Assembly: GCA_019636475.1 (NCBI GenBank)
Contig: JAHBXN010000003.1
Span: 310,001-374,000, forward strand
Source: Phycisphaerae bacterium
Lineage (GTDB): Bacteria > Planctomycetota > Phycisphaerae > UBA1845 > UTPLA1
DNA length: 64,000 bases
Direction: 5' to 3'
Position numbers and translations under genes: made by a program. The stretch's first letter is position 1, and each line of letters opens with the position of its first letter. Below are positions 48,148 through 63,814 of the stretch, piece after piece. The notes beneath the pieces were generated by a model that saw nothing but the letters and a program-made list of their open reading frames with translations, was not told the origin of the DNA and did no database searches.

Positions 48148-50586
48148 TCAAGGCGCGATCAGGAGATCGACGTAGGCGGCGATGTCCGCGTCATCGAGCG
48201 TGCCCAACGGGGCCGCCAGGTCGGCGCAGTCGCTGTAGTTCGGACTTTGGACGTGAGCATCCGTGAAACCTTGAAGGTCGCTTCCGTCGACGATTCCATC
48301 ACCGTTGAAATCACCCAGGAGCGAAAGCGTGCCCGAATCACTGGCGCTGAGGGGACTACAACCAGCCGTATTGCACGCCTTGACCCAGTAGAAGTACGTG
48401 GAGCCGTAGATGGCGGTTGAATCGTCCATTGTCGTGCCGACAACACCGCTAGCGATCATCGCGGCTGTTCCCGGATTGTTTACCACGTTTCGCCAGATCT
48501 CGTAGTCATCAGCCCCCTCGGATGCGCTCCAGGTCACCTGAATAGACGCACATGATGCGCCATCCTGGGCTGCAACCCCCGTCGGAGCCGGCGGCGGAAC
48601 GATCAACAGCGTCTCAAGGACATCGCCGGTCGCAATCAAGGCAAAGCCCTGAAGACCCTGGGCCACTGTCGTCGCCGAAACCCGAGCGGTCCACTGACCG
48701 ACGGCAGGACCGTTGATATGCACCTGTTCCACGTTGTTCTTCGCATCTCGCGTGCCGCCGGGAATCGAGACGCCGCCGCTGAAGACGTTGCCGCGATAGG
48801 TCGTTGAAATTGGCGAAATGACTTGCAGATCAAGATCATTGACCGATGCATTGCCAGTGCCGGTGCTGGCAGAGGCCGGCGGCTCAGTCCAGACAAGCGT
48901 CACGCGGAGCTGCTCCGAGTTGGAATCAACCTGGAACGTGTATTCAAGCATCTGTCCGGTTGACAGGCCGCTGGCGTTGCGGACATCGTCCAGCACGAGG
49001 AGCTTACGGGTGTCGCCGGGGAAATACAGAGCGTTATCAAGCAGTACGCGGCCCCATCCTTCCTGATTGCTCGGGTAGCCGGCAATGCCGGTCATGTCGA
49101 CCGACGTGTTGATGAGCGTCGCCTTGAGCAACGCTCCGGTCGGCGTAAACGTGTTGGCGGCCGTCGCGACGCCGGTCGGGTAATACCCTTCAGTGAAATA
49201 CTGGCGGACCAGCGCGGCAGCGCCGGCGACCGCGGGTGATGCCATGGATGTGCCGGTCAAGTTGGTTGTACCGCAGCTTCCGGGTGTCGCAGAAGTCGTC
49301 AAGCATCCGGGGGCATAGACCTCCGGCTTGCGGCGGCCGTCCGCGGTGGGTCCCGTGCCGCCGGAACAGTGATTCGCCTGATTCGGCGTATCCTGCGACG
49401 CGCCCACCGCCAGGAGGTTCTTCGCATTTTCCGGATTCTTGAGGGAACTCAGATTGGTAACCGCGAGCATAACGATGTTGTCTTCCTGGGCGTAGACGAA
49501 TGCATCGATCCCACGAGCAAGACCGTCGTAGCTGGTTGTGCCGTCGTTGCCCCAACTGTTCGTGTGCATCCGCGCGCCCTGATTCGCGTGTGTGGTGAGT
49601 GCGGTGTTGACGGACGACTCCGTCAGACTGGGAGTCAGGTTGAACGCGATATTCGCTTCATAGGCGACGCCGCGCGTGTTGTCGTTCACACCGGCGTTGC
49701 CGGCAGCAGTACAGGACACATGCGTGCCATGCTGGTTGTCGATGCCTTCCGACACGTTATAAAAGAGAATCTTGGTGCCGTTCAGCGAACAATGCTGACG
49801 GTCCGCCCGGCCGTCCAGCACGCCGATGATCTGCCCGGCGCCACGAATGCCGGCGTTGTAGACAGGCGTCACATTCAACAAATTGCTCTGGACGATCCAG
49901 CGATTCGAGCTGTTCCGCAGGGTGATTTCCGGGGCGGGCTCGATGTACTGCACCGACGCCAGATTCGCGATCGCGTCGACCTTGTCGCGGGGAATCTCCG
50001 CAACAATCTCGAACCAGTCGGCAAGAGGCTCTGCACGATGGATCATCGCGCCGTCGAGATTCTCCAGCGCTTCGAGCGCTTCGGTCGGATTCGCTCCGGC
50101 AAAGACCGTTACAGTCGTCGGCAGTCGATCGGCAATCGTGATCGCCTGCATTTCGGGTGTTGTGTAAACACGGGAATACAGCTCCGGATCGATTTTCCAC
50201 TCCGGGCGGAACATGCCGACAAAACGGACATATCCGGTTGCACGCAAGTCATCCGCGGCGACTGTTCCGAGCCGAGCGACATAGGCATTCAGCGGGAGAT
50301 AGTCGTAGAGCGCAACCCCCATCCCCTCTAGTTCGGCGCGGCGATCCGCGGTGATCGGGCCGTCGAGCATCAGGACATAGGCCTGTTCCGCGTCGAACAC
50401 CGCGCCCGGATCGTCGAGGAGATTCAGCAAATCGTCCACTGCGACCGCGCCCGTGTTGAAGTAAACAATCCCCGGCTGAAGTTCGGCTTGTGCCCGATTG
50501 ATTTCCTGCGCCGTTGCGGCGGCAGCGCCCGTTAGAATGGTAAAAGTAAAAATAGCCGCGACCCACCCACTCCCCTTGTTGGACAT
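48148..50586 (-). CDS. Secreted S8 (subtilisin-like) peptidase with FN3 and dockerin-like tail
   Basis: 812 residues. A signal peptide ending ATAQ is followed by an inhibitor/propeptide-like region (to about 230), the subtilase domain with IIGVLDGRAD (Asp), HGTHVSCTAA (His) and LTGTSMASPAVAG (Ser), a beta domain, a fibronectin type III-like segment (PAPTGVAAQDG onward), and a C-terminal EF-hand-like DFNGDGIVDGSDLQGF unit as in dockerin-type modules. The first catalytic motif has DGR rather than DTG, otherwise the triad is intact. Degrades extracellular protein or processes surface proteins. A GGGAGG site precedes the ATG. Confidence 0.9.
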   Translation of the reverse strand: MSNKGSGWVAAIFTFTILTGAAAATAQEINRAQAELQPGIVYFNTGAVAVDDLLNLLDDPGAVFDAEQAYVLMLDGPITADRRAELEGMGVALYDYLPLNAYVARLGTVAADDLRATGYVRFVGMFRPEWKIDPELYSRVYTTPEMQAITIADRLPTTVTVFAGANPTEALEALENLDGAMIHRAEPLADWFEIVAEIPRDKVDAIANLASVQYIEPAPEITLRNSSNRWIVQSNLLNVTPVYNAGIRGAGQIIGVLDGRADRQHCSLNGTKILFYNVSEGIDNQHGTHVSCTAAGNAGVNDNTRGVAYEANIAFNLTPSLTESSVNTALTTHANQGARMHTNSWGNDGTTSYDGLARGIDAFVYAQEDNIVMLAVTNLSSLKNPENAKNLLAVGASQDTPNQANHCSGGTGPTADGRRKPEVYAPGCLTTSATPGSCGTTNLTGTSMASPAVAGAAALVRQYFTEGYYPTGVATAANTFTPTGALLKATLINTSVDMTGIAGYPSNQEGWGRVLLDNALYFPGDTRKLLVLDDVRNASGLSTGQMLEYTFQVDSNSEQLRVTLVWTEPPASASTGTGNASVNDLDLQVISPISTTYRGNVFSGGVSIPGGTRDAKNNVEQVHINGPAVGQWTARVSATTVAQGLQGFALIATGDVLETLLIVPPPAPTGVAAQDGASCASIQVTWSASEGADDYEIWRNVVNNPGTAAMIASGVVGTTMDDSTAIYGSTYFYWVKACNTAGCSPLSASDSGTLSLLGDFNGDGIVDGSDLQGFTDAHVQSPNYSDCADLAAPLGTLDDADIAAYVDLLIAP

Positions 50587-50956
50587 CCAATGCCTCCCTG
50601 TCTTGTCTTGATCGTCCCGAGGAATGAACGTCACGGGGGACGAACTAAATTAACCCAGAGCCGATATCAGTATAATCCGGACATCCCCGCGTGCATAACA
50701 AAAAGCCACTCGAAGCCCCAAAAACCGATTTCATGCCGCGTGGATGCACAAAAACCTTATAAACGGTCGTCTTGCGGCCGCTCCGCCTGCTAAATGGTAG
50801 AACGTCGATAAGCCGCGATTATTGCGGACCTGCGAACTCCATCCGTCGGGGAGTCGGCTCCAGGGTTGGTAAGTGCCGTCTAAGCATCAAGATCGACGTA
50901 TAATCCGCCTGTGGCCCAAACTAAACCAGCCTCCCTGAAAACGAAAGTGTGCAGTC
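50587..50956. other. Divergent promoter region between the S8 peptidase and the MORN lipoprotein
   Basis: 370 bases without a gene. Plus-strand TATAAT boxes lie at 50671-50676 and 50899-50904, neither with a good -35 at proper spacing. On the minus strand TATACT at 50669-50674 may be a -10 for the peptidase, again with a poor -35. No longer repeat was found. Confidence 0.4.
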
Positions 50957-54357: not shown

Positions 54358-54689
54358 AACGTTAAAACCTCATAGTTCAGCCCCGCGACGCGAGGCGGGA
54401 AGGCAACGCGTTTCGCGAATTCAGGCGGAATCGGGAATGACGACCGACAGGCGCCTGAACGCGCGCTTGACGGTTCGGCACCGTAATACGCGATTCATAG
54501 CAGAACATGACCGAGACGAACAGCCAGTGTTCCGCCACAATTTGACGAAACACGGTCCGGAAATTGCCGGACGCGGGCGATGGCTGTAAGATACGATCCC
54601 GTTGTGAGTTAGGCACAAAATGAGACCCGCGTCGGGTCGTCGTTCACCAAGTTTTACCTAACGGACGCCCACTTCATGTGTCCTGATCT
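54358..54689. other. Intergenic region with a promoter for the second ECF system
   Basis: 332 bases. Holds the 54564-54592 promoter and a small inverted repeat (GACCC-GC-GTCGGGTC-like) after it in the predicted leader. No convincing gene on either strand; the minus-strand promoter of the asparaginase gene is not clear. Confidence 0.4.
54564..54592 (+). promoter_or_regulatory. Candidate promoter for the second ECF sigma gene
   Basis: TTGCCG, exactly 17 bases, TAAGAT. The start of transcription would be near 54599, about 90 bases upstream of the sigma ATG. ECF genes often have a second, self-recognised promoter, which I could not identify. Confidence 0.5.
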
Positions 54690-55307
54690 ATGAGCGAAGC
54701 GCCGTTGCAGTATGACGCAGAACGCCAGGAAGCTGCACAGCGCGACGCGGATGATGTCGCCAAAACGCTTTCGGGCGACCTGTCGGCCTACGACCGACTG
54801 ATTGAGCGATATCAGCGCCGTGCGGTTGCGGTAAGTTACCGGCTGATCGGCAAAGTGGACGATGCAATGGACGTGGCGCAGGATGCATTCCTGCGAGCGT
54901 TCAAGTCGCTCGCCACGCTGGAACAGGCTGAACGGTTCGGCCCGTGGCTGATGCGAATTGTCAGCAATCTGTCGCTGAATTTTCGACGCTCGCGACGCCC
55001 GACCCTGTCGCTGTCAGCGGGCGACGACGAAGGTGCCCGGGAGGACCTCGATCTGGCAGGACGGCGCGGTACGCATGATCGCCCGGACGATGTGCTACAG
55101 ACCAGCGAGTCAGAGTCCGCGATTACCAGAGCGATCGAGTCCCTTCCGGAGAAGCAGCGTCTGGCGTTGATTCTGTTTGCAATCGAGCAGGTGCCGCAGA
55201 AAGAAGTGGCGGAAATACTTGATTGCACGGTCGAGATGGTGAAATGGAACGTGTTTCAGGCACGTAAGACACTGAAGAAGCTATTGGCGGAGTTGATTGA
55301 GGAATGA
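54690..55307 (+). CDS. ECF-family RNA polymerase sigma factor
   Basis: 205 residues. Region 2 contains DDAMDVAQDAFLRAFKSL and the -10-binding helix; region 4 contains PQKEVAEILDCTVEMVKWNVFQAR. Acidic linker between the domains (SAGDDEGAREDLD). Coupled by an ATGA overlap to the next gene, which has the position and shape of its anti-sigma factor. The likely target is an envelope response, because the following gene is exported. Confidence 0.92.
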   Translation: MSEAPLQYDAERQEAAQRDADDVAKTLSGDLSAYDRLIERYQRRAVAVSYRLIGKVDDAMDVAQDAFLRAFKSLATLEQAERFGPWLMRIVSNLSLNFRRSRRPTLSLSAGDDEGAREDLDLAGRRGTHDRPDDVLQTSESESAITRAIESLPEKQRLALILFAIEQVPQKEVAEILDCTVEMVKWNVFQARKTLKKLLAELIEE

Positions 55308-55972
55308 CTGATCCCCGCGAACATCTTGAGTTTCTCATCGCCCGCGCAACCGATGGCGACCTGACCGGCGAAGAGCGGGAGATCATTTCGAAGGCTGTCG
55401 CAAATGACACCGATCTCGCCGATGAGATTCGCCGGTACGAACGCGTGAACGCGGTGATCGCCAACTGGCGGACAGTTCCGCACGACATGGATTGGGCGGG
55501 CTTTCGGCGCTCGGTGTCGGACGCAGTCACCGACGATGCGATGGCGACCGTCGATGAAACGATTCGCGGCGTGGTGGGTTCGATGCCGCCCGTAGATTGG
55601 GATGCGTTCCGTTCGCGTGTTTCGTCGGCGGTTCGTGCCGAGGCTGTGCAAACGGGCCGGGCGGCTCCGTATCGCATGCAGGCATTTCGACACGCTCGCT
55701 GGCTGGCCCCCCTTGCAGCGGCGGCGGCCATTGCGATCGCGGTGTTTCGCGGAGGTTTCGATCCGCAAGGCGTTGTGCCGACGGGGGTCGATCGAGAACC
55801 GTCCCTGCTCGTTGTTTCGTTGGATGTACCGGAGTCCACCGGGAAAATCGCGGTGATGTTCGACGAATCGCCCGCGCCTGAAATGGTTGCCGAGATCGGC
55901 CCGTCGTCTGCCTTTGTTTCGACCGGCGGCGCCCTTGTGATTGAAGATGTCGACGACGGATACATGTTCTAG
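55304..55972 (+). CDS. Putative anti-sigma factor with one membrane helix
   Basis: 222 residues. A cytoplasmic N-terminal half of about 125 residues is rich in short helices with acidic and arginine residues; a helix near 130-145 (APLAAAAAIAIAVF) crosses the membrane, and a periplasmic tail of some 75 residues contains beta-like segments and ends in an acidic stretch. No HxxxCxxC zinc finger is present, unlike the fused finger of the first system, so it may be of a different anti-sigma class. Assignment rests on gene order and topology. Confidence 0.7.
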   Translation: MTDPREHLEFLIARATDGDLTGEEREIISKAVANDTDLADEIRRYERVNAVIANWRTVPHDMDWAGFRRSVSDAVTDDAMATVDETIRGVVGSMPPVDWDAFRSRVSSAVRAEAVQTGRAAPYRMQAFRHARWLAPLAAAAAIAIAVFRGGFDPQGVVPTGVDREPSLLVVSLDVPESTGKIAVMFDESPAPEMVAEIGPSSAFVSTGGALVIEDVDDGYMF

Positions 55973-56236
55973 CGATTTAACGACTTGATGTGCGTCATCG
56001 GCGCGAGCGCCATGACAGCAGTGCTGCTTTACGGGTCAAATCGACCTGGATGCAGCTTGTGTGCGAATCGGAAGTTTTTGGTGACCTTAACGTCGGTGAC
56101 CTGCGACGCTTGCGGTCCGGTCAACTTGAGTCGATGGAAGCCTCCAACGAGTTCCATTCCGGGCGCGCTCTATCCGAACGCGCTCGCCGGTCTCGTGCGC
56201 GGGGGCTGATTGCATTGGAATCGTGGGTATTTGATC

Positions 56237-57391
56237 ATGCGAAGCGCCATAATGTCACACATGTTCCTACTGGCTTGTCTGTTCGCGTTTCAATCGACGG
56301 CTCGCGGTGAATCCGGCGGCGCGGACATTGCGAGAGCGCTGGATCAGACGCTGCCTCAGATCACAATCAGCGATCAGGAATTGCCGGATGCCCTCGACGC
56401 CCTGGGCAGGCAGGCGGCGATCACAATGACGCTGGATGAAAATTCGGCGGACCTGCTGCCGTGGGGACGCCGAACCCGATTGAAGACGCTGACGGTGCAG
56501 AACAAGTCGCTTCGTGAGGTGCTGCCGCAGATACTCGGCGTGCTTGGAATGGTCTATGAGATTCGCGAGAACGATCTGCTGGTCGTCGCCGGCGAGCCGC
56601 TCAAGCGGATCAATCGCCGTGCGACGTGGGACGACTTGAAGCTGCTTCGTGAGCTGAACGAGACGGAATTCTCCGTTGAGAATATGGAGAAGTTCAGGAT
56701 TCAGTATCGAATCACCGCAAAGCTCGATGCCCCGGGACTGCTCAACGCGCAGCTGCTCAAGGCCGGACGCGGCAGCATCGCACAAAATCTGGAGACCGCG
56801 ACCGGCGCGCTGGGCTGGGTCTGGTTTCCGAACGGCGATCACATCGCGATTCGTACGTCCGAGGCGCAGATCGCGAATCGACTCTCGCGGCGCATCACGG
56901 TGCGATATGCAAACGAACCGCTGACCAAGATTATCGTGGACCTTGGCGATCGAGCCGAGACGTTCATAAGTTTCGATCCCGGGCTGCTGCTCCGGCTTCC
57001 GCCCCGCGTCGCGCAGGGCACCACACTGAATCTGGAGCGGACGTCCATTCGGCAGGCGCTTGAATTGCTGGTGGCGGAGACCGGAATCAAGTACGAGATC
57101 CGCCGCACCGGCATTCATATCAGCGCGTCGGATACTGCCGCTGGAGCGGCACTGGGCGACAGCGCCTCGGCGGGTGAACCGGCCCGGCGGGCCGCCAGCT
57201 CGTATGTCGGGAAAATCTCGATTCCGAGCGGCGACGGCACCTATTCGTATGAATTTCTACTTCGGGCGGATGAATTGCCGGACGACATCCTGGAATATCG
57301 CCGTCAGCTGCTCGAGGCGTACATTCAGAAAATCCGGGCGGACATGGCGCCAGTCGAGGGCGACAACTCACCGGGCGGCGCCGGGGAATAG
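56237..57391 (+). CDS. Exported protein with two STN-like modules downstream of an ECF system
   Basis: 384 residues. A signal peptide (MSHMFLLACLFAFQS) is followed by two copies of an STN-type fold: ITISDQELPDALDALGRQAA with DLLVVA, and later VRYANEPLTKIIVDLGDRAE with VAETGIKYEI and IHIS. STN domains sit at the start of TonB-dependent receptors and secretins, where they signal through anti-sigma factors. No barrel or secretin follows here. Two STN modules next to sigma and anti-sigma genes suggest a stand-alone signal input. A TTG at 56210 is an alternative start; the ATG at 56237 or 56252 fits a signal peptide. Confidence 0.8.
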   Translation: MRSAIMSHMFLLACLFAFQSTARGESGGADIARALDQTLPQITISDQELPDALDALGRQAAITMTLDENSADLLPWGRRTRLKTLTVQNKSLREVLPQILGVLGMVYEIRENDLLVVAGEPLKRINRRATWDDLKLLRELNETEFSVENMEKFRIQYRITAKLDAPGLLNAQLLKAGRGSIAQNLETATGALGWVWFPNGDHIAIRTSEAQIANRLSRRITVRYANEPLTKIIVDLGDRAETFISFDPGLLLRLPPRVAQGTTLNLERTSIRQALELLVAETGIKYEIRRTGIHISASDTAAGAALGDSASAGEPARRAASSYVGKISIPSGDGTYSYEFLLRADELPDDILEYRRQLLEAYIQKIRADMAPVEGDNSPGGAGE

Positions 57392-59693: not shown

Positions 59694-60758
59694 GTGTCCG
59701 AGTCTCCAATTGCACCCTACCTGGCAAACAGCGGCGCCTGGCCTTGGCTCTCAGTCGCGGCCTTGGTTTGCGCCGTAATGATTTACGCAATTTCGGTTCG
59801 TCGCCGCGCGTTGGCAATTTTTGCGTCGATGCGGGTTCAGGGATTCCTTGTGCCCTTTGTCAGTTGGCCGCGGCAATATTTTCGGGTCGCGCTGGTCACA
59901 TTGGCGGCGCTCGCCGTTTCATTGGCGTTGCTCGGTCCTCGATGGGGTGTTTACTACGAGGAAGCGCGAATGAAACAGCTCGATCTGATGATCTGTCTCG
60001 ATGTTTCTCGCAGCATGCTCGCCGAGGACGCGGGCATGTCGAGGCTGAATCGAGCAAAAGATGATATCAATCGCCTGCTGGACCGCATGGCTGGGGCAAG
60101 CATCGGACTCGTGGCGTTCGCCGGCAAAGCTCAGCTGGTTTGCCCATTGACGGATGACTATGAGTTCTATCGATTGGAGTTGGAGGATGTCGGCCCGCAC
60201 AGTGCGCCGCTCGGTGGAACCAACATCAGCGAAGCCCTAATTGCCGCGCGCCGTAGCTTCGGACCTCCGGCGGCCAGGGAACGAGCGATCGTGCTGATCA
60301 CCGACGGCGAGGATCAGGGAGGCACCGCGACGGACGAAGCCCATGCTGCATTTAACGATCAAAACATTCGAGTCTTCGCAATCGGCATCGGCGACGACCG
60401 GGACGGCGCCTTCATTCCGATCGAAAACGACGGAATGCGCTCGCTGCTTTCCTATCAAGGCGAGCCTGTCCGAACGAAGCTCAATCCGGAAAAGCTTCAT
60501 GCGATCGCCCGCGCCGGCGGAGGCGAATACCAACCGAGCGGGCAGGTGACATCGCGTGAACGCACACTCGAATGGATTTACCGCAATCGCCTGCTTCCGA
60601 GCCTGAAGGAAAATGAATCGGAGCAGCAATCCGAGAGACTGTACGATCGAGCGCATTGGTTCGCCATTGCGGCTCTTGCGCTGCTACTAATCGAGATGTT
60701 CATGGACGACCGGCGCAGCACGCCGCTGGAGACCGAAATCGGCGGGAGTCTGACATGA
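59694..60758 (+). CDS. batB: BatB-type VWA membrane protein
   Basis: 354 residues with a GTG start. Two N-terminal helices (about 15-32 and 62-82), a periplasmic VWA domain with MIDAS motif DVSRSM (Asp 103) and a C-terminal helix (about 322-340, AHWFAIAALALLLIEMFM). The Bat (Bacteroides aerotolerance) proteins form a membrane complex tied to oxidative stress. ATGA overlap with the next gene. A second VWA gene (batA) and MoxR, usual partners, are not adjacent. Confidence 0.9.
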   Translation: MSESPIAPYLANSGAWPWLSVAALVCAVMIYAISVRRRALAIFASMRVQGFLVPFVSWPRQYFRVALVTLAALAVSLALLGPRWGVYYEEARMKQLDLMICLDVSRSMLAEDAGMSRLNRAKDDINRLLDRMAGASIGLVAFAGKAQLVCPLTDDYEFYRLELEDVGPHSAPLGGTNISEALIAARRSFGPPAARERAIVLITDGEDQGGTATDEAHAAFNDQNIRVFAIGIGDDRDGAFIPIENDGMRSLLSYQGEPVRTKLNPEKLHAIARAGGGEYQPSGQVTSRERTLEWIYRNRLLPSLKENESEQQSERLYDRAHWFAIAALALLLIEMFMDDRRSTPLETEIGGSLT

Positions 60759-61939
60759 TTCGAGGCGATTTCGCGATCATGGGTGACGAGATGACTGGCG
60801 GGCAGCAATTGCCCACTCATGCAGTCCGCCCGAAAAGAATGTTCCCTGGCGTCGCGGTCATGCTCATCGCCGCGATCTGCCTGGCGCCGAAATTCGCGAT
60901 GGCTGAAACGCTTCCCCGTGAGGCGGCGAGACTGATCAACGAAGGCGCGGCGCTCCTGGCCGCTGACAAGCCTGACGAGGCGTTGAAGGTGTTTGACCAC
61001 GCGGCGGATCTTGCTCCGCGCTCGGCCGAGATTGCATTTAATCGAGGCATCGCGCTCTATCGTCTGGGAGAATTTGATAAGGCCCAGATCGCGTTTCAGA
61101 ACGCGATCCGATCGCAGCGCCCTGATCTGGCGGCCAAAGCAAAATACAACCGCGCCAGATCGCTCCAGGAAAACGCGATTCGCGATCGACTTGAGCCCGA
61201 ACGCGCGCTGAAACAACTGCAGGAATCCATCAAGCTCTACGACGAATCCCTGGCACTGAACAAGGACGACGCGGACGCGCGGCAGAATCGTGATTCCGCT
61301 GATCGCATGGCTCAGTACTTTACCTGGCTTTTGGAGCAAATGAAGAAACAGCCCCCGCCATCGGAACAAAACCAGGGGGGCGACGAAAAGAACTCGGAGC
61401 AGAGCTCCAATCAGCAACAGAAAGGTTCACAATCGCCTTCGACCCAGCAGTCCGACGACGGAAAACAGCCGCCGTCCGAACAGAATCAGGAGGGCAACGA
61501 ACAGAACTCGGAGCAGAACTCCGATCAGCAACAAGAAGGTTCACCCTCGACTTCATCTGATAATTCCGACAGCGGGAATCCGCCGAAAGACGGTGAAGAA
61601 TCTCAGCCCGACGTCAAACAAAATGGCGAATCGACGCCGGAATCAAGCGAGTCGCCCAAGTCGAATGATGGACAAGAGGACGAAAAGACCGATCGCGAAC
61701 AGTCCGAGTTGTCAGCGGGCGAGGAGGGTGCGGCATCGGAAACGACATCGCAGCCTGCGACCCAACCCACCACAATGCCCTCACAAAACGCAAGAGACGC
61801 ATCCCAAAGCGACAGCTCTCAGGAACACGCGCTGCGACTTCTGCAGGAGATCCGCGATGCCGAACGCGAACGACGGAAGATGCAGAGGGAAGCGCAATTA
61901 CGGCGGCAAGGCCGCATGAAGGTGGACAAGGACTGGTAG
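60755..61939 (+). CDS. batC: BatC-type TPR protein with repetitive tail
   Basis: 394 residues. A membrane helix near the start (about 30-50, VAVMLIAAICLAPKFAMA), then about three TPR repeats (EALKVFDHAADLAPRSAEIAFN and following), then a long Gln/Ser/Glu-rich low-complexity tail of some 190 residues with a 38-codon tandem duplication, ending with a charged helix. BatC partners BatB and BatD. The start overlaps the batB stop by ATGA. Confidence 0.88.
   Translation: MIRGDFAIMGDEMTGGQQLPTHAVRPKRMFPGVAVMLIAAICLAPKFAMAETLPREAARLINEGAALLAADKPDEALKVFDHAADLAPRSAEIAFNRGIALYRLGEFDKAQIAFQNAIRSQRPDLAAKAKYNRARSLQENAIRDRLEPERALKQLQESIKLYDESLALNKDDADARQNRDSADRMAQYFTWLLEQMKKQPPPSEQNQGGDEKNSEQSSNQQQKGSQSPSTQQSDDGKQPPSEQNQEGNEQNSEQNSDQQQEGSPSTSSDNSDSGNPPKDGEESQPDVKQNGESTPESSESPKSNDGQEDEKTDREQSELSAGEEGAASETTSQPATQPTTMPSQNARDASQSDSSQEHALRLLQEIRDAERERRKMQREAQLRRQGRMKVDKDW
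61355..61582 (+). repeat. 114-base tandem repeat inside batC
   Basis: Two tandem units, 61355-61468 and 61469-61582, each 38 codons, encode a PPSEQNQ-to-QQQ-type block and differ at many synonymous and some coding positions. Length variation here would change the protein's disordered linker without shifting frame. Confidence 0.8.
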
Positions 61940-61945
61940 TCGCCA

Positions 61946-63814
61946 ATGCGCTTGATACCAACAAAAACAATCCATACGCGTGATGTCACGATCGGTTCTC
62001 AAGGCCGTTGGAACCAGACCGGGATTTCGCGCGCCGTGGTACCGTTGATTGTCGCCGCTTTGGCAGTAGCGTTCATGGCGCCATCGGTCCATGCCGCGGA
62101 GATGACGGTCGGAGTATCCACGAACGAATGTTCGCTTGAAGAAACGATCACGATTCAGGTTTCGGTCATCAACCCAACCCAGGCATCCACGCCGATTCCC
62201 GACAACACACCGGACTTTCAGATTCGACTGTCACCCGGAATGGCGAACCCCGCGCGATCAAGCAACGTGACCATCATCAATGGCCAGATGGATTCGACGG
62301 TCACGTACTTGTACACCTTTGAGGCCCGACCGCTTCGCGCGGGTCGATTGATGCTGCCCTCCTTCAAGCTCAATGACGCCGGCACGACACTTCAGACCGA
62401 ACCGATCGCGGTTTCGGTCACCAAGCGCGCGAGTAACGCGGCGGACGCTGTTTTCTGTAAGATCGTCGTCCCGCGGCCGACAGCCTACATCGGTGAACCG
62501 GTCAGCGTGAAGCTCGAAGTCTATGTGCGGCAGTATCAGCAGGAAGGGATACAGCCTTTCAATGCGCAGATGTCGTTAAATCTATCCCGATTCAATGTGT
62601 CGCGATTCGGGGTCTTCACCGATGCACTGTCGAACTCCCCGAACTATCGAACAGTCAAACTACGTGACGAGCGCGGCATCCTCACTGATCACTTCGTGTT
62701 CTCGTGGGAAACCACCATTTACCCAAGCAAGATCGGTCCATTCGATTTCGGAGACATATTGATCGGATGGTCTTATCCGACGTGGCTTCGGCGGGGATTC
62801 ATGACCCTTGAACACGGACGGCCTGAGCGGCAGTTCCGCTTGCGGCCCACTATCCCGCCGTTCGAGATCAAGCCGCTACCCACAGATGGCCGCCCCGCCG
62901 ACTTCAACGGTGCAATTGGACGATTCAATTTCACGACCACGGCCACGCCGGTCTCTGTTCCAGTCGGTGATCCGATTACCTTGACGATGACCGTTCGGGG
63001 CAGCGCCGCACTCGATCGAATCAGTCCCCCGCTGCTGGATCGAGTCGACGCGTTGACTGATCGATTCGAATTGTCCGGAGAAGCGCTGACCGGTGAGATG
63101 ACACAGGCATCCAAGTCATTCATCCAGACAATTCGCGCGCTGCGGACAGGCGTCACGGAAATCCCATCGCTACCGTTCAGCTACTTTGATCCGGAATCCG
63201 GCGCCTACGGTACCGCCTGGAGCGCCGCGATCCCGATTTCGGTTCGGCCCGCGGAGCGCGTCGCAATGCCTGACGGCGCAGCCGGCGGTAGCGCGCCGAC
63301 CATGACGCCACTCTCGGAAACCGCTTCCGGGCTGCGGGCAAACTACTCGAATCTTGATGGGCTGCTCGCTGACCAGTCCGGGCGCATCGGTGTCTTGCCG
63401 CTGGCGTTCGCCGCCGGAATGCCCGTGATCTACCTCGGGGCGCTCGTGATGGTTCGAAGATCGGATCGATATCGTTTGGATGCGGCGCTCGCACGACGTC
63501 GATCAGCACGCTCGAATGCATTCCGGTGTCTTGCGCGCGCTAAGAGCGATTCGAGTTCCGAGAAGGTCGCTCACGCTCTGATAAATTACATCGCTGATCG
63601 CATCAATCTTCCGGGCGCGGGATTAACACGCGTCGAGGCTGTCGATCAGCTCAAAACACGACTTGTCGAGAGCGAATTGATAACCGAAGCCGATCTTCTG
63701 CTTGAAGAACTGGAGATGATACGTTACGCAGGCGGGGTCACGAAGTCCGCGGCAAATGCCGCTGATCGGGCGCAACGCCTGATCGACGCACTGGAGAGAA
63801 TTGATCTGACATGA
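61946..63814 (+). CDS. batD: BatD-like membrane protein
   Basis: 622 residues. A signal peptide (ending SVHAAEMT) is followed by several beta-sandwich domains in the periplasm (for example VVPRPTAYIGEPVSVKLEVY), then a membrane helix near 490 (GVLPLAFAAGMPVIYLGALVM) and a short cytoplasmic helical tail. This is the standard layout of BatD (oxygen tolerance family). Spacing from batC is six bases; its ATGA overlaps batE. Confidence 0.9.
   Translation: MRLIPTKTIHTRDVTIGSQGRWNQTGISRAVVPLIVAALAVAFMAPSVHAAEMTVGVSTNECSLEETITIQVSVINPTQASTPIPDNTPDFQIRLSPGMANPARSSNVTIINGQMDSTVTYLYTFEARPLRAGRLMLPSFKLNDAGTTLQTEPIAVSVTKRASNAADAVFCKIVVPRPTAYIGEPVSVKLEVYVRQYQQEGIQPFNAQMSLNLSRFNVSRFGVFTDALSNSPNYRTVKLRDERGILTDHFVFSWETTIYPSKIGPFDFGDILIGWSYPTWLRRGFMTLEHGRPERQFRLRPTIPPFEIKPLPTDGRPADFNGAIGRFNFTTTATPVSVPVGDPITLTMTVRGSAALDRISPPLLDRVDALTDRFELSGEALTGEMTQASKSFIQTIRALRTGVTEIPSLPFSYFDPESGAYGTAWSAAIPISVRPAERVAMPDGAAGGSAPTMTPLSETASGLRANYSNLDGLLADQSGRIGVLPLAFAAGMPVIYLGALVMVRRSDRYRLDAALARRRSARSNAFRCLARAKSDSSSEKVAHALINYIADRINLPGAGLTRVEAVDQLKTRLVESELITEADLLLEELEMIRYAGGVTKSAANAADRAQRLIDALERIDLT

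Follow-up and report, generated by a model that had tools for sequence, protein, structure and literature searches.

A plus-strand cluster of three genes in a planctomycete genome encodes an ECF sigma factor, an anti-sigma factor and an exported protein with two STN modules. We propose, at close to an even chance, that these genes form a self-amplifying envelope-signaling unit that needs no TonB receptor and in which the STN protein would serve as a cap. The cluster occupies positions 54690 to 57391 of the analyzed stretch of 64,000 nucleotides (here called the window), which belongs to a genome of 4.4 Mb in 18 contigs that is 95% complete. The trio recurs across much of a planctomycete class and constitutes a good test case for the passage of signals across the cell envelope. 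Planctomycetes are rich in little-studied ECF systems, and they gain with this cluster an ECF system with a defined promoter-like site. The following features were assigned.

54564 to 54592, + strand: possible housekeeping sigma-70-like promoter (TTGCCG-N17-TAAGAT), weak, seen by eye in 15 aligned upstream regions; a consensus scan of these positions gave no promoter-like site
54658 to 54689, + strand: predicted ECF autoregulatory promoter CTAAC...GTCC (AAC-N17-GTCC), then 6 bases, then ATG
54690 to 55307, + strand: ECF sigma factor, 205 aa (Pfam Sigma70_r2 at 8.4e-15 and Sigma70_r4_2 at 5.1e-13; NCBIfam sigma70-ECF over the cut-off)
55304 to 55972, + strand: anti-sigma factor, 222 aa, overlapping the sigma gene by 4 bases
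55973 to 56236, + strand: gap of 264 bases between the anti-sigma and STN open reading frames (ORFs)
56237 to 57391, + strand: exported double-STN protein, 384 aa, with STN1 at ~37 to 125, a half module at ~176 to 208 and STN2 at ~212 to 300 (Pfam STN, AlphaFold model, structure matches, internal repeats); a longer form starting with TTG at 56210 is possible

The gap between the second and third genes (55973 to 56236) contained neither an Rfam match nor a copy of the ECF-type site. An RNA element in this region was considered and rejected for want of an Rfam match.

The window's anti-sigma protein matched no Pfam family up to an E value of 10 and reached the NCBIfam anti-sigma model only at 0.0037. 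Among 69 members of its family, however, 29 matched Pfam zf-HC2 and 2 matched RseA_N, while 34 matched the NCBIfam model "anti-sigma factor" and 10 the model "putative anti-sigmaE." RsiW (twice) and MucA made up the first three of five Foldseek matches of the predicted structure, which were weak (E 0.76 to 1.5). By its relatives, and weakly by its predicted fold, the second gene is an anti-sigma factor; it is probably of class I (RsiW/MucA-like) with one membrane helix. In the model (pLDDT 73), helices extend as far as the membrane-like helix, and most of the tail scores below 60. The protein can be divided into a helical anti-sigma domain (residues ~1 to 60), a second helical block (~61 to 120), a hydrophobic helix (~134 to 152) and a tail of ~70 residues that ends in YMF. 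A 19-residue stretch with a Kyte-Doolittle value of at least 1.6 was present in all 73 anti-sigma proteins, including that of the window, and the tail past this stretch measured 57 to 137 residues (median, 79; n = 73). No FecR or STN family was found in the relatives among the 25 Pfam families listed, out of 27. The last residue was hydrophobic in 55 of 74 anti-sigma proteins and aromatic in 32 of 74, compared to 127 and 39 of 654 mixed ORFs and to 33 and 0 of 73 sigma proteins; these counts ignore relatedness, and the mixed set includes six-frame ORFs that are not genes. Such a tail end would fit a tail-recognizing protease or a capping partner. By eye, the anti-sigma proteins of five loci (L089, L112, L102, L282 and L284) appear to contain two tandem anti-sigma domains, and that of the window contains one domain and a degenerate second block, with a repeated P-x-x-DW-x-x-F-like motif.

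Scored as a whole, the third protein (384 aa) matched the Pfam STN family (PF07660) at 3.5e-8 (33.6 bits, compared to a cut-off of 28.4). The first-pass annotation had proposed two STN modules, to be confirmed by HMM. This was achieved for module 2, which alone passed at 0.01; the two stretches were listed separately only at a relaxed E value of 10, and the best single STN stretch in the whole-genome scan scored 22.5 bits, below the cut-off. Module 1 is weak in Pfam and therefore rests on its fold and on its repeat relation to module 2. The two modules are repeats of each other (hhalign, 99.2%; E 1.8e-19), and residues ~176 to 208 resemble the second half of a module (hhalign, 60 to 84%, depending on the part compared), so that the protein comprises two modules and probably a degenerate half module. 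At 0.01, Pfam STN was matched by 69 of 73 family members, including that of the window, and FecR_C by 19 of 73. A signal peptide (residues ~1 to 24) was recognized by eye. The C terminus (~320 to 371) forms a hairpin and a long helix and is conserved in the family; none of the listed structure rows covered this part alone, and they barely bear on it.

The AlphaFold model of the STN protein had a mean pLDDT of 90.8, and VIA-align placed STN/N0 folds at residues 29 to 125 (module 1) and 212 to 300 (module 2). The matches included DotD (Z 11.2), EscC (11.0), the putative anti-sigma factor BDI_1681 (10.6) and PilQ (10.3), as well as PupR (8.8) and FpvA (7.8). Hub proteins of phages and injection systems were also matched, at Z 9 to 10, and the top rows of Foldseek, which gave zero matches at E ≤ 0.001, were hub proteins of contractile injection systems and phages. 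Both modules have the STN fold, but because these hub proteins match too, the fold alone is uninformative on function. When the family profile was compared to solved structures, the signaling domain of PupA came first (E 0.003). Neither a barrel nor a secretin channel domain nor the RseB family was matched by the STN protein in Pfam at E values up to 10. Taken together, Pfam, the fold and the signal peptide seen by eye bear out the original description of an ECF sigma factor and an anti-sigma factor followed by an exported, stand-alone double-STN protein that carries no barrel.

The system had also been called receptor-less. A search for the TonB-dependent receptor barrel (PF00593), which was positive in 3 of 14 control genomes, gave 0 candidates in the window's genome at 95% completeness, and two further STN matches of this genome look like secretins by eye. 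"Receptor-less" is therefore right for the window's genome, the one genome searched. The idea that this is a FecIR-type system with a detached input module had to be abandoned. An ECF sigma factor and an STN domain on a third protein are shared with FecIR-type systems, while the TonB barrel and the FecR-type anti-sigma factor are absent. Because the anti-sigma factor is not of the FecR type (no FecR or STN match and a short tail of ~70 residues), the cluster is not a FecIR system whose input module became detached.

In Pseudomonas aeruginosa, an ECF/anti-sigma pair has been described whose STN partner lacks a barrel; this partner, VreA, was mostly soluble when tagged (PMC2729926). The system to which it belongs, PUMA3 (VreA-VreI-VreR), resembles the window cluster in that an ECF sigma factor and a membrane anti-sigma factor are joined by an exported, barrel-less STN protein (PMC2729926). 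Such a partner is already known, and the window system is therefore a variant rather than a new category. VreA carries one STN domain and a TolA/TonB-like domain, whereas the window protein has two STN modules, a half module and a C-terminal hairpin and helix that may differ from the VreA domain. There, vreA and vreI seem to form one operon and vreR another unit, whereas the order in the window is sigma, anti-sigma, STN. The kind of anti-sigma factor differs as well, and P. aeruginosa has STN-bearing TonB receptors, in contrast to the window's genome with no barrel match.

FecIR, PupIR-PupB and FoxIR-FoxA share with the window an ECF sigma factor, a single-pass anti-sigma factor and a partner with an STN fold; however, that partner is a barrel receptor (PMC7186176, PMC11637429). 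The periplasmic region of PupR comprises residues 110 to 324 with a beta-solenoid and an STN domain (PMC7186176, in part), compared to a median tail of 79 residues in the window family. In the RpoE-RseA-RseB system, a single operon with an autoregulated promoter likewise encodes a sigma factor, a membrane anti-sigma factor and a protein exported to the periplasm (PMC8103513). A class I anti-sigma factor with one membrane helix is common to both, although the fold match is weak in the window. The third protein of the window differs from RseB in having an STN fold and, in Pfam, no RseB family match. Finally, the secretins PilQ, GspD/XcpQ and EscC carry N0 domains of the same STN/N0 fold, but the window protein matched no secretin domain and no secretion genes were recognized alongside it.

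Conservation of the gene order, which the first-pass annotation had named as a test of its proposal, was pronounced. The STN protein was matched in 83 of 101 genomes searched, including that of the window, and flanks were analyzed for 82 of these matches after the weak match G053 was dropped. Within the taxonomic order of the window, a sigma gene was found upstream on the same strand with one ORF in between in 75 of the 76 loci with enough flank. The middle ORF was similar to the window's anti-sigma gene in 70 of the 75 and was assigned by its place alone in 5. Two further loci (L041 and L079) had an anti-sigma-like ORF reaching the contig end, and four had no upstream sequence. The exception was G001, whose sigma/anti-sigma pair lies 26 kb from the STN gene. 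Outside the order, 40 loci of the class were inspected: of the 38 that were informative, 25 had both genes (the sigma of L183 being weaker), 1 had the anti-sigma gene alone and 12 had neither, and the remaining 2 had too little flank. Four of the 12 loci with neither gene had only 1.4 to 2.1 kb of upstream sequence. In six of the 12 (G163, G147, G246, G171, G205 and G169), sigma and anti-sigma genes were present elsewhere in the genome, and the other six (five of genus g92 and one of g124, family f11) had weaker ECFs only. In these six genomes, the STN protein must work without the cluster's sigma factor.

Across 397 genomes of the class, the STN protein was found in 137 (E ≤ 1e-20) and the sigma factor in 139 (E ≤ 1e-50). 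Both were present in 121, STN alone in 16 (which include fragmented assemblies), sigma alone in 18 and neither in 242. This association had a Fisher p of 4e-63 with relatedness ignored and with 5 to 7 candidates scored per genome. In a sample of the phylum, 3 of 392 genomes matched the STN protein at E ≤ 1e-15, namely, that of the window, one other class member and one from outside the class. No ORF cluster of at least 8 loci was consistently downstream of the STN gene; one 11-locus cluster was scattered on both sides. Secretion machinery was not recognized beside the STN gene among neighbor clusters of at least 8 loci, as judged by sequence starts.

The upstream regions of the sigma genes share a promoter-like site. 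AAC-N17/18-GTC[TC] was present in 71 of 75 regions, compared to a mean of 4.5 and a maximum of 12 in 50 shuffles; spacings of N17 and N18 accounted for 58 and 16 matches, respectively, compared to 2.8 and 2.7 in shuffles. The family consensus reads CTAACC...GTGTCTA (CTAAC-N17/18-GTCT in spaced form). The start codon lies exactly 6 bases past the site in 37 of 75 regions, 26 of them with ATG, and at other distances in the remainder, which suggests a leaderless message in the 37 six-base cases. Outside the order, the site was found at 29 of 32 sigma genes (from a tally of 31 of 35, in which 3 of the 35 lie within the order). All seven sigma genes examined whose STN gene is located elsewhere have kept it, and the search for the site revealed the displaced sigma gene of G001. 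The displaced STN gene of G169 carries its own CTAAC-N17-GTCT-N6-ATG at the same start distance; this was noticed post hoc among 11 upstream regions, of which the other 10 have no site there, and we estimate the chance at ~3e-4.

When 110 genomes were searched for the site close to an ATG, 30 matches were obtained, compared to 6 for a reversed control, and 13 loci were translated for this regulon search. By place, 21 of the 30 precede the sigma orthologue, including those of G001 and G405. The nine others appear to be near chance: six start ORFs of fewer than 40 aa, and no gene recurs among the nine. A control pattern with the wrong spacing gave 0 matches in the 110 genomes and its reversed control 4. 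The window's genome itself had 4 matches, compared to 5 for the control, and the pattern thus gives no sign of a large regulon there. A conserved target of the site beyond the operon was not found, either by the 110-genome pattern search or among relatives of L187. The latter (G000:C2:562743-562777) is one other site of the same geometry in the window's genome, which precedes a 566-aa secreted protein rich in Gly, Ser and Tyr. It was unmatched in 19 related loci (L200 to L218), apart from a loose, unrelated match in L217; these loci match mostly the C-terminal part of the L187 protein, and some may stop short of its start.

How might the three proteins work together? In the capping model that we favor, the anti-sigma factor would tether the sigma factor to the inner membrane, and the exported STN protein, via one or both modules, would bind the short, apparently unstructured anti-sigma tail and shield it from a periplasmic protease. 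An envelope signal would loosen this cap, upon which the anti-sigma factor would be cut stepwise. The freed sigma factor could then transcribe its own operon, including the STN gene, from the CTAAC-N17/18-GTCT promoter, and expression of the operon would rebuild the cap and reset the response. The domains and folds, the linkage and co-occurrence of the genes, the site upstream of the sigma gene and the zero barrel matches in the window's genome speak for such a unit. We infer use of the site by this sigma factor, as well as the binding, the protection from proteolysis, its sign, the protease and the signal. A cap that shields the tail is favored because of the FoxA and RseB precedents, the separate exported STN protein and the short, hydrophobic-ended tail modeled at low confidence. 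Overproduction of the FoxA signaling domain stabilizes FoxR against proteolysis and blocks sigma activity (PMC11637429, in part), and RseB, encoded in the rpoE operon, binds and guards RseA (PMC8103513, in part). PupR and FoxR, however, bind their partners through an STN domain of their own, which the window's anti-sigma factor does not have, and this difference counts against a cap. So do the 16 of 137 STN-bearing class genomes with no sigma match at E ≤ 1e-50, the 18 genomes that have the sigma factor but no strong STN match, and the failure of the site searches to reveal a regulon outside the operon. More tentatively, a diffusible periplasmic protein may here unite both STN halves of the receptor/anti-sigma contact, read the envelope and gate proteolysis of a tail-only anti-sigma factor, as a class-wide, receptor-independent arrangement in bacteria without TonB receptors.

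An opposite sign is conceivable if improbable: the STN protein might be a soluble periplasmic sensor that, upon meeting a ligand, engages the anti-sigma factor and causes it to be cleaved. The classical model of cell-surface signaling works in this way, and the same has been proposed for VreA. The PupA signaling domain as the best solved structure for the profile, the CSS domains among the fold matches and a parts list equal to that of PUMA3 (PMC2729926, in part) are in keeping with such a sensor. Against this, the Fox work found the signaling domain to be protective and not activating (PMC11637429), neither a ligand nor a cognate receptor is known, and the window's genome gave zero matches to receptor barrels. 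Where the STN domain is part of an outer-membrane receptor, as in the classical systems, its influence on the anti-sigma factor can hardly be told apart from transport. The module described here occurs free in nature, in many genera and in a genome with no receptor barrel match, which makes the question of protection or triggering directly testable.

The STN protein could instead be an output of the system: a factor for envelope or secretin assembly, akin to secretin N0 arrays, that always belongs to the regulon. We consider this rather unlikely. Its best evidence is that at least 6 genomes keep the STN gene without the sigma gene; in addition, the modules match the N0 domains of PilQ, EscC and XcpQ, 5 to 9 of 73 members weakly match type IV pilus secretin models, the window's genome has the two secretin-like STN proteins, and a site of its own precedes the STN gene of G169, as expected of any target gene. 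The constant place behind the anti-sigma gene over many families speaks against it, as does the lack of consistent downstream ORFs and of recognizable secretion machinery among clusters of at least 8 loci. That the protein is a truncated TonB-dependent receptor, with its barrel lost or located elsewhere, is scarcely credible. STN is indeed established as the N-terminal domain of such receptors, but the relatives are similar in size, the C-terminal part is conserved and barrel candidates number zero; on these grounds, a truncated receptor was rejected for the window's genome within its 95% completeness.

Several minor observations were made at related loci. G025 (L279) and G035 (L280) keep the sigma gene but have no strong STN match and no recognized adjoining anti-sigma gene, and joint loss of both is possible. 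Three loci of family f11 (L176, L177 and L184) have the STN gene without the cluster's sigma gene, directly behind an enzyme gene that we take to encode adenylosuccinate lyase. The sigma gene of G405 is seemingly in two pieces, far apart on the same contig (L290 and L231), with an adjoining stretch of N, possibly due to an assembly fault. A divergent gene, presumably for prolipoprotein diacylglyceryl transferase, recurs in 27 loci (L038, for example) and lies 3.6 to 3.9 kb upstream of the STN gene and upstream of the sigma gene. L087 (G008:C8) encodes an exported protein of 273 aa that contains a single STN-like stretch and whose gene lies close to a signal-peptide-peptidase-like gene; stand-alone STN proteins may be commoner in this group. 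Elsewhere in the window, the minus strand encodes a large secreted protein (48148 to 50634) that by eye has the look of a subtilisin-type protease and a dockerin-like end. Positions 59694 to 63814 (+ strand) encode a membrane protein with a von Willebrand domain, then a protein rich in repeats and another, large membrane protein, the first gene alone having been scanned with Pfam; this set resembles Bat operons.
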